Shown here piece after piece: positions 1-55,402 of a stretch of DNA of 64,000 nucleotides. Numbering within the stretch: position 1 is the stretch's first letter; every line of letters starts with the position of its first letter. Both the position numbers and the translations under genes were made by a program. Origin of the DNA: Sphaerimonospora thailandensis (lineage in GTDB: Bacteria; Actinomycetota; Actinomycetes; Streptosporangiales; Streptosporangiaceae); the NCBI RefSeq assembly GCF_016863115.1, contig NZ_BOOG01000009.1:1-64000 (forward strand). The letters run 5' to 3'. The notes under the pieces were generated by a model. The model did not search any database and was not told the DNA's origin. It was given only the letters and a program-made list of their open reading frames with translations.

Positions 1-791
1 AGCAGGTAGAACCAGTGGTTCTGCGGGCCGGCCGCCACGTGCGCCTCGGTGCGGGGAATGGCGGGGCCGTAGCAGTTGGGGTCGCCCAGCGCGCCCGGGT
101 TGTACATGTTGCGGATCGGGCCGCGGCCGAGAAGGTTGACGTCCTCGCCCACCAGGTAGTCCGGCGGGTCGTTCGGGTTGTTGGCGTAGTGCTCGGTCAG
201 TGCGCCGAAGATGTCGCCGGCCGACACCCCGAGGGCCTGCGCCTCGTTGCCGGTGCCCGTCCCGCCGGTGCCGGAGGTCTGGTAGATCCTTTGGCCGTAC
301 TCGTAGGCGAGCACGTCCATCGCGGTCACCCAGCCTGATCGGGCGTTGTAGGCGATGATCATTTGGCCGGGCGAGGGGGGTGTGGTCCCGCTTCGGGAGG
401 CCAGGCGGGCCGGGTAGCCGTGTCCGGTTCTGCCCAACCAGGCGCGCAGCATGTCCCAGTGCTTCTGGGCGGCGTACATGACGTCCACGCAGGCCCGCGA
501 CTCCTCGGTCGGCGTGCCCGTCGGCAGCACGACAGGTCGGCCGTTCGGGTCGAGGCACTCGATGCCCGGTCTGATCGGGTCGATCATGACATCGCCGGTC
601 GAGGTACTGGTCACGTCGATGCCGACCCGGCCGCTGTAGCGCCCATCAGCCATGACTCCGACGTTCATGACGCGCTCGACCTGGTCGGGCACCGCGCCGG
701 TCGCGGCGGCGGCCTGCGGGGCCGACGGCGATGCGATCGCCGCCGTGGCCGACAAGAGAAGCGCGGCTGCTGTCCGTCCGGAGTTTCTCAT
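1..791 (-). CDS. Secreted thermolysin-like (M4) protein with degenerate zinc site, partial
   Basis: The reading frame starts at ATG 791, with a GAGAGGAA ribosome site just upstream, and runs off the window; 263 residues are visible. Residues 1-30 form a signal peptide. The rest resembles the mature catalytic domain of thermolysin-family (M4) proteases, including GDIFGALTEHYANN (192-205), YLVGEDV and the late histidine in EAHVAAGP (H251). The usual long inhibitory propeptide (FTP/PepSY) is absent: mature-like sequence begins right after the signal. The zinc motif HExxH reads YEYGQ (163-167), and the third ligand, Glu of NExxxD, is V189 in GVSAGD. All three zinc ligands are therefore lost, while the general-base Glu (E164) remains. 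A secreted non-catalytic M4 homologue is the likely product. It lies downstream of leuA on the same strand, beyond a strong hairpin. Confidence 0.8.
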   Translation of the reverse strand, partial: MRNSGRTAAALLLSATAAIASPSAPQAAAATGAVPDQVERVMNVGVMADGRYSGRVGIDVTSTSTGDVMIDPIRPGIECLDPNGRPVVLPTGTPTEESRACVDVMYAAQKHWDMLRAWLGRTGHGYPARLASRSGTTPPSPGQMIIAYNARSGWVTAMDVLAYEYGQRIYQTSGTGGTGTGNEAQALGVSAGDIFGALTEHYANNPNDPPDYLVGEDVNLLGRGPIRNMYNPGALGDPNCYGPAIPRTEAHVAAGPQNHWFYL

Positions 792-940
792 CGCTCGCGG
801 TTCCTCTCGGAGGGCCTCTGGGAACGGGACCGCGCCCGGTGAAGGGCACATTCCTCTCCAACGTCCTACCGAGTGGCCGCTCTGACCACATGCCAATCTT
901 CTATAGAACGCCGTTATGGCCGGACATGCGGAAAAGCAGT

Positions 941-975
941 GGGGCGGCACCCGGGGATCGCTCGGGTGCCGCCCC
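941..975 (-). terminator. Hairpin terminator downstream of leuA
   Basis: A perfect 13-bp stem (941-953 pairs with 963-975) closes a 9-nt loop. It is GC-rich with no clear U-tract, as is usual in actinomycetes. It sits between the end of leuA and the M4-like gene on the same strand, so it probably ends the leuA transcript. Confidence 0.65.
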
Positions 976-978
976 AAC

Positions 979-1117
979 TGCAAGATCACGAAAGCCTTTT
1001 GGGCAGGTCAACGGCCATACGTGCGAGTTTCTGCAAGATCACGAACCGGATCGGGGCAGGTCATGCCGCCTTTCTGCGAGCAATTGCAAGATCACGGCCG
1101 GGTTGGTTGGGGGGAGG

Positions 1118-54022: not shown

Positions 54023-55402
54023 TCAGATCCGCTGCCAGAGCGCGGGCACGTTCGGCGGCTCCCAGCCCGGCAGGGAGGTGTGCGACTGGAGGCACCGGTA
54101 GGTGGCGCCGCCGTAGGTCACCGTGGATCCCGCGGTGTACGAGGTGTACGTCTTCCAGGTGCCGCCGGGGTTGGGCGGGGTCGTCGGGCCGGTCGTCGGG
54201 CCGGTCGTCGGGCCCGCCGTCGGGCCGGGGTTGCTGCCCGGGGTCTTCAGCGTGAGGCCGTAGACCGAGAGGATCTCGTTGACCGGCTGGTAGTAGGTGG
54301 TGCCGCCGCTGCTGCAGTTGCCACTGCCGCCGGAGGTCACGCCCTGTGCCTGGTCACCGGAGATGAACGAGCCGCCCGAGTCGCCGGGCTCGGCGCACAC
54401 GCTGGTGCGGGTCACGCCGCTGACGGTGCCCTGGGAGTAGGTGACGCTGGTGTTGTGCTGCTGGACGGTGCCGCAGTGCCAGCCGGTGGTCGAGCCCGAC
54501 CGGCAGATCGAGGCGCCGACGAGCGCCTGGGTCGAGCCGCGGACGGTCAGGTTGCCGCCGTTCTGGTTCACGTACGGCTGGGCGGTCCAGCTGCTGTTCG
54601 CCGCGACCCACGCGTAGTCGTTGCCGGGGAACGACGAGCCCTGGAAGGTGCCCTGGGCGACCCGGTTGGAGCCGCTGGTGGAGGCGCCGGTGTTGCCGCA
54701 GTGACCAGCGGTCACGAAGCCCTGCGTGGTGCCCCGGGTCACCGGGAAGCCGATCGAGCAGCGGCTGCCGCTGCCGATGTAGTAGGCGTCGCCGCCGCGC
54801 AGGTCGTAGTAGGTCTGCGGCTGCTCGCTGGACTTCTCGACGCGGACGATCGAGCTGTCGAGGCCGCTGGCCGCGACGAACTTCTCGGCCGCCGCCGGCT
54901 CGGAGGACAGCACGACGACGCTGTTGTTCTGCACGTCGACGTACCAGACGGGCGCCGTCTTGGGAGCCTTGCTCGCGGCCCGGTCGAGGGCGTTCTTGGC
55001 CGAGACGAGCTTGGCGTACGGGTGCCTGACCACCTTGGCCTCCGCACCCTCCGCCGCGATGTCGGACTTCGCGGCCGAGTCGGTGGTGGCGACCACGAGC
55101 TTGGCGTCCGGGCCGGCGAGCCAGGAGCCGGCGAACCGGTTGCCGAGCCTGCCGCGCAGCCTGGCCTCGGAACGGGTGGCGCGATCCTCGTTGGCCAGCC
55201 GAGTCCTGGCCTGGTCGGCGTTGAGGCCGAGGTCACGCTGCATCGCCTGGACCAGGCCGGCCGGGGGGTCGCCCGCGGGGGCCTGGGCTGCCGCCTGCTC
55301 CTGCGCGGTCGGGCCGGGTTCGGCAACAGCCGCGCCGATCGGAATCGTGAGTCCGGCGGCCACCAGGGCACCGGCCACGATGAGGGAGTTCCTCCGGAAC
55401 AT
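54023..55402 (-). CDS. Streptogrisin-type S1 protease with chitin-binding domain
   Basis: A secreted, self-maturing serine protease of 459 residues: signal peptide (1-27), an alpha-lytic-type prodomain (about 50-195; VVRHPYAKLVSAKNALDRAA), and a chymotrypsin-like domain with His in TAGHCG, Asp in GNDYAWV and Ser in EPGDSGGSF. A PTTGPTTGPTT linker and a C-terminal CBM5/12-like chitin-binding domain (YTAGSTVTYGGATYRCLQSHTS... ending PALW) follow. This resembles Streptomyces griseus protease C. AAGGAGA precedes ATG 55402. With the chitinase it suggests attack on chitin-protein material. Confidence 0.94.
   Translation of the reverse strand: MFRRNSLIVAGALVAAGLTIPIGAAVAEPGPTAQEQAAAQAPAGDPPAGLVQAMQRDLGLNADQARTRLANEDRATRSEARLRGRLGNRFAGSWLAGPDAKLVVATTDSAAKSDIAAEGAEAKVVRHPYAKLVSAKNALDRAASKAPKTAPVWYVDVQNNSVVVLSSEPAAAEKFVAASGLDSSIVRVEKSSEQPQTYYDLRGGDAYYIGSGSRCSIGFPVTRGTTQGFVTAGHCGNTGASTSGSNRVAQGTFQGSSFPGNDYAWVAANSSWTAQPYVNQNGGNLTVRGSTQALVGASICRSGSTTGWHCGTVQQHNTSVTYSQGTVSGVTRTSVCAEPGDSGGSFISGDQAQGVTSGGSGNCSSGGTTYYQPVNEILSVYGLTLKTPGSNPGPTAGPTTGPTTGPTTPPNPGGTWKTYTSYTAGSTVTYGGATYRCLQSHTSLPGWEPPNVPALWQRI

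Follow-up and report, generated by a model that had tools for sequence, protein, structure and literature searches.

A secreted, propeptide-less M4-family protein of Sphaerimonospora thailandensis without zinc ligands: a probable chitin-anchored pseudopeptidase

The first gene of the 64,000-nucleotide window analyzed here (contig C9 of the assembly) encodes a homolog of the M4 proteases in which YEYGQ stands in place of the zinc-binding motif HExxH. Is this a gene in decay, or a pseudoenzyme maintained for another role? The open reading frame (positions 3 to 791, minus strand; 263 codons), identified from its translation, is the 5' part of an M4-family pseudopeptidase gene; read directly from 791 to 3, its product is MRNSGRTAAALLLSATAAIASPSAPQAAAATG...NHWFYL. 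Window position 1 is the start of the contig, and the frame is therefore cut there.

The source genome (6.18 Mb; 166 contigs; 99% complete) provides the remainder. A whole-genome profile search placed PF02868 matches at three sites, i.e., on contig C60, on the C9 piece (profile positions 8 to 96; 38.4 bits, over the cutoff), and at the start of contig C103 (profile positions 101 to 165; also over the cutoff), and the latter two contigs carry the only two partial M4 pieces of the genome. The C103 piece (L004, positions 1 to 409, plus strand) is in frame with the end of C9: the junction CT/C GCC GAG GGC AGC AAC continues the frame exactly and yields YL-L-AEGSNP, where relatives have FYLLAEGSNP/TNP. 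It supplies the remaining M4 C-terminal domain and a CBM5/12 module (PF02839; 57 bits; positions 1 to 44 of 44; conserved aromatics), and the joined frame comprises 399 codons (399 amino acids). We infer that the two pieces are one gene. The zinc-site changes described below are independent of this join, since they lie 210 to 305 bp inside C9. Several full-length active relatives carry a terminal CBM5/12 like that of the YEYGQ protein, including Streptosporangium, Microtetraspora, Nonomuraea, and Planomonospora members from the tree region around it; these tails support both its placement and the join. The first-pass annotation had missed the run-off of the gene at the contig start and the putative chitin-binding tail. 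The source genome holds 12 CBM5/12 matches, which suggest a chitin-degrading lifestyle; a further CBM5/12 lies in the window at 54032 to 54160 (minus strand), inside a 481-codon open frame.

Residue equivalences were obtained by alignment to thermolysin, with the substrate strand mapped via relatives. YEYGQ (positions 291 to 305, minus strand; TAC GAG TAC GGC CAA) replaces HExxH through H142Y and H146Q, with E143 kept (Y163, E164, and Q167 of the protein correspond to H142, E143, and H146). GVSAGD (213 to 230, minus strand; LGVSAGD, CTC GGG GTG TCG GCC GGC GAC) replaces NExxxD, with N165G (G188), E166V (V189), and D170 kept (D193). All three zinc ligands are thus lost, as is N165. The codons, read directly, and the thermolysin alignment agree with the first-pass reading of YEYGQ for HExxH and of Val for the third-ligand Glu, and they confirm that the changes from His to Tyr and from His to Gln are each one base from CAC/CAT. 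E166V is likewise a one-base change, while N165G (AAC to GGG) takes three. A sequencing error was ruled out: four zinc-site codons and the substrate strand differ, and such an error is not a sensible explanation because the change from Asn to Gly needs three base changes.

The substrate-binding strand (residues 130 to 147; 351 to 404, minus strand) is altered relative to the invariant VG..NAYWNG of active relatives, with T136, T137, and P139 at the positions of N112, A113, and W115 (N136T, A137T, and W139P). Other parts of the enzyme are kept: R203 (R227), the H231 equivalent (H251; 39 to 41, minus strand, from the alignment with relatives), all six cysteines of the relatives, and the fold motifs GDIFGALTEHYANN, YLVGEDV, and EAHVAAGP, which are present as previously described. 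D159, E200, D211, and E216 (within 144 to 317, minus strand) correspond to thermolysin D138, E177, D185, and E190, which form the structural calcium site, and are invariant among active relatives. Judged against active M4 enzymes, the protein therefore lacks HExxH, the third-ligand Glu, the N112-A113-x-W115 strand, and (see below) the propeptide, and it retains the His231 and Asp170 equivalents. By its sequence, it is almost certainly catalytically dead.

PF01447 on the C9 piece scored 19.9 bits, just below its cutoff of 22.4, and is marginal. An AlphaFold model built on a 54-sequence alignment (pLDDT, 80.6; mostly above 80 past residue 40) had thermolysin as its best PDB match (E = 1.2e-10; TM, 0.70); a single-sequence fold (pLDDT, 42) was dropped. 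PF02868 on both pieces, together with this structural match, assigns the protein to the M4 family by sequence and by fold.

M4 proteases normally need their propeptide for folding and for staying inhibited. Here, a predicted signal peptide (MRNSGRTAAALLLSATAAIASPSAPQA; 711 to 791, minus strand; by sequence inspection) has no propeptide after it. The end of leuA lies 327 bp upstream of the gene, leaving insufficient room for a 200-residue propeptide, and tblastn with the propeptides of two relatives, for which positive controls worked, detected no remnant upstream in any frame. The absence that had been reported is thus genuine, in that none is encoded. A perfect 14-bp inverted repeat (940 to 976, minus strand) between leuA and the gene is possibly the leuA terminator, which would suggest that the gene forms its own transcription unit; a promoter/terminator consensus scan found nothing and did not list this repeat.

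The site itself is a variable insertion site. In a genome of the same genus (G001), leuA is 95% identical, the M4 gene is absent, and an FGE-sulfatase-like (SUMF1-like) gene occupies its place downstream of leuA (L202, 6542 to 7237, minus strand). A genus-specific interspersed repeat with the core TGCAAGATCACG and units spaced 53 nt apart occupies window positions 978 to 1096 (plus strand); it occurs in 86 copies in the source genome and 248 in G001 (0 for a reversed control), in arrays of one to three units that often form facing pairs, and is found between leuA and the M4 gene here and downstream of leuA in G001. On C103, an AbiEi/AbiEii type IV toxin-antitoxin pair (L004, 512 to 2082, minus strand) adjoins the 3' end of the pseudopeptidase gene.

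Neither 343 genomes of the family, nor 84,980 species genomes scanned by pattern, nor plasmids yielded a relative more than about 55% identical. Conservation of YEYGQ in orthologs, raised earlier as a mark of maintenance, was not found: the motif is a singleton of one genome, HExxH is intact in every one of the closest relatives, and the gene is missing from the same-genus genome. Another change, E143Q, is conserved in an orthologous pair (G322 and G323). Those two belong to a set of eight other propeptide-less M4 proteins in Streptosporangiaceae, i.e., G180 (HEYGH/NE), G191 (HQYGH), G322 and G323 (HQFGH; common gene neighborhood), G324 (REYGH), G249 and G253 (HEYGH with N165A; clustered with full-length M4 genes), and G006 (FVYGG/NR). 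When distinct sequences were counted and propeptide presence was assigned by blastp, catalytic residues were changed in six of the nine propeptide-less proteins versus 0 of 112 propeptide-bearing ones (Fisher, 2e-8, with kinship ignored), and at least one residue of the N112/A113 pair was altered in all nine. Three propeptide-less proteins retain HEYGH and the Glu; on this ground, the propeptide and the substrate strand were likely lost before the zinc ligands. The proposal that the propeptide is missing because there is no activity to restrain gains from the family-wide association and is qualified by the likely order of events.

Two further variants were seen in this survey. The G253 and G249 clusters (L194 and L195) each contain three M4 genes, i.e., two full-length forms, one HEYSH/ALDEG (N165D) and one HEYGH, and a propeptide-less HEYGH/LAE form. 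Full-length Actinokineospora M4 proteins (L087, L090-L092, L097, L100, L114, L118, L126, and L132) have Gly at the otherwise conserved Asn165 (LGE) with HExxH intact.

In a careful tree search, seven of the propeptide-less proteins grouped together (89/87), five of them as a core with strong support, and the YEYGQ and G006 proteins fell outside it. A first tree had united the YEYGQ protein and the short forms (SH-aLRT, 93), a grouping undone by the addition of L187/L188 and the careful search. The AU test marginally rejected the YEYGQ protein within the seven-member clade (P = 0.047) and did not reject its pairing with the G006 protein (L150; P = 0.28). Its placement is unstable, on a long branch, and long-branch attraction is suspected behind its grouping with Actinokineospora (98/90). 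Propeptide loss thus had at least two origins, probably three. After each, catalytic residues were lost as well; within the seven-member clade, this happened several times independently.

Is the gene maintained? It has a GC3 of 0.91 and no stop or frameshift, and it is about 45% diverged from every relative. A branch codon model (17 sequences) was written since NG86 and YN00 gave conflicting results or failed at GC3 values above 0.9. It rejected omega = 1 on the YEYGQ-protein branch (2dlnL = 82.6) and likewise for the remaining lineages with a changed site (G006, 38.6; seven-member short clade, 491). The estimate of 0.02 on the YEYGQ branch is unreliable because synonymous sites are saturated, and only the rejection of omega = 1 is used. 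This is the dN/dS check that the first-pass annotation had proposed, and it came out in favor of maintenance; the test averages selection over the whole branch, which may have been constrained for most of its length, with the loss coming only recently.

The distribution of changes is also informative. Among columns at least 98% conserved in 50 active relatives, 5 of 42 are changed in the C-part, three of them being the zinc ligands (hypergeometric P = 9e-4), and 10 of 23 are changed in the N-lobe, clustered at the substrate strand. Compared with active relatives, the protein is 35% identical in the N-lobe (versus an active-active mean of 67%), 67% identical from the zinc helix onward (versus 75%), and 58% identical over the C103 part (versus 60%), a contrast between N-lobe and C-part that is shared with the other propeptide-less relatives. 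The rejection of a neutral branch, the focus of the changes on zinc ligands and substrate strand, a C-lobe conserved almost as in active enzymes, and parallel cases among relatives uphold the earlier view of a maintained pseudoenzyme. The protein has lost catalytic residues while its fold has been kept under purifying selection, the combination that characterizes a pseudopeptidase.

On this evidence, the gene probably encodes a secreted, chitin-anchored M4 pseudopeptidase that acts by binding, with a propeptide-less, two-lobe M4 domain and a C-terminal CBM5/12. Its ancestor would have been an active M4-Ig-CBM5/12 protease of Streptosporangiaceae. The propeptide and the Ig-like linker would have been lost, the substrate-binding edge strand replaced, and H142, H146, and E166 lost, so that neither binding of the catalytic zinc nor peptide cleavage is expected of the protein. 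It would be secreted and fold without a propeptide; the CBM may tether it to chitin or a similar polysaccharide, and the former active-site face or the C-lobe surface may engage a partner protein or peptide. Conservation of the helical C-lobe, calcium site, cysteines, and CBM suggests such a binding role. We infer the absence of zinc and of activity, as well as chitin binding and partner binding, for this protein. A broader reading, which we put forward tentatively, is that Streptosporangiaceae repeatedly made propeptide-independent binding proteins from M4 proteases, with the propeptide and substrate strand lost first and the zinc site afterward, giving a distinct secreted class with one chitin-anchored member.

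The main rival is a decoy, in which the dead protease would shield an active secreted M4 enzyme by titrating proteinaceous metalloprotease inhibitors or by competing for substrate. Pseudopeptidases in general can regulate active cousins (PMC11266112), the short forms of G249 and G253 adjoin full-length M4 genes, and the source genome has an intact M4 gene on C60 (L005; HEMSH/NE; all motifs present). The C60 protein is, however, only a distant paralog (about 28% identity); replacement of the substrate strand, the expected inhibitor contact, should weaken inhibitor binding, and a CBM is unnecessary for such a role. We regard the decoy as unlikely.

Early decay, i.e., activity lost recently in one strain with the frame still unbroken, would agree with the occurrence of YEYGQ in one genome whose closest relatives all have HExxH and with the single-base nature of the changes from His to Tyr, His to Gln, and Glu to Val. 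It is nonetheless improbable given about 45% divergence without a stop or frameshift, the GC3 of 0.91, the rejection of omega = 1, the nonrandom concentration of changes on zinc ligands and substrate strand, the clean absence of the propeptide, and the changed-site parallels kept in other genera. More doubtful still is altered chemistry, in which the protein would bind metal or act as an enzyme via other ligands or hydrolyze through E143, H231, and D170: the E143, D170, R203, and H231 equivalents are retained, but no substitute ligand set is evident, the N112/A113 strand and N165 are lost, and other propeptide-less relatives have lost E143 itself (HQFGH, HQYGH, and FVYGG). An artifact, i.e., a contig-end misassembly or a two-gene chimera, might be suspected from the position of the gene at a contig end and from the higher similarity of its C103 part (72%, versus 52 to 55% for the C9 part) to active relatives, but it is scarcely credible when C9 and C103 meet exactly, to the base and in frame, at a conserved motif, as the only two partial M4 pieces of a 99% complete genome, with the key changes 210 to 305 bp inside C9, a C-terminal CBM5/12 that fits the architecture of relatives, and the same N-lobe/C-part contrast in other propeptide-less proteins.

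Having preferred a chitin-anchored binding protein, we compare it with known systems. Pseudopeptidases are well known (PMC11266112), and the protein falls within this known kind. No M4 pseudoenzyme was found in the openly available literature searched, although MEROPS may list M4 nonpeptidase homologs, and neither "thermolysin" nor "family M4" occurs in the pseudometallopeptidase review PMC11266112. Within that literature, M4 pseudopeptidases that pair propeptide loss with catalytic loss appear to be new. The natural propeptide-less set, three of which have the zinc site, offers existing genes with which to test how folding helper, substrate cleft, and catalysis are linked, and a chitin-anchored dead protease, if true, would give the thermolysin fold a new role.

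Like the MEROPS M4 enzymes (i.e., thermolysin, bacillolysin, aureolysin, and pseudolysin), the YEYGQ protein has the two-lobe fold, the calcium-site residues, a secretion signal, and the D170, R203, H231, and E143 equivalents; unlike them, it has no zinc ligands, N165, N112-A113-W115 strand, or propeptide. Its nearest sequences are actinomycete M4-CBM5/12 and M4-M28 fusions, and it has the CBM5/12 tail in common with Streptosporangium and Microtetraspora M4 proteins. The eight propeptide-less Streptosporangiaceae proteins resemble it in that the signal peptide directly precedes the M4 domain, the N112/A113 strand is altered, and catalytic residues are changed in five of the eight. They differ in their motifs (HQFGH, HQYGH, REYGH, and FVYGG) and in having an Ig-like tail or none rather than CBM5/12, and they probably had separate origins from the YEYGQ protein. 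The known metallopeptidase pseudoenzymes, i.e., inactive ADAMs (M12), AEBP1/CPXM (M14), and Ecm14 (PMC11266112), belong to other families and other organisms; like the YEYGQ protein, they have kept the fold, lost catalytic residues, and likely act by binding. The M14 pseudoenzymes interact with collagens in the extracellular space (PMC11266112), which is comparable with the CBM anchor of the YEYGQ protein.
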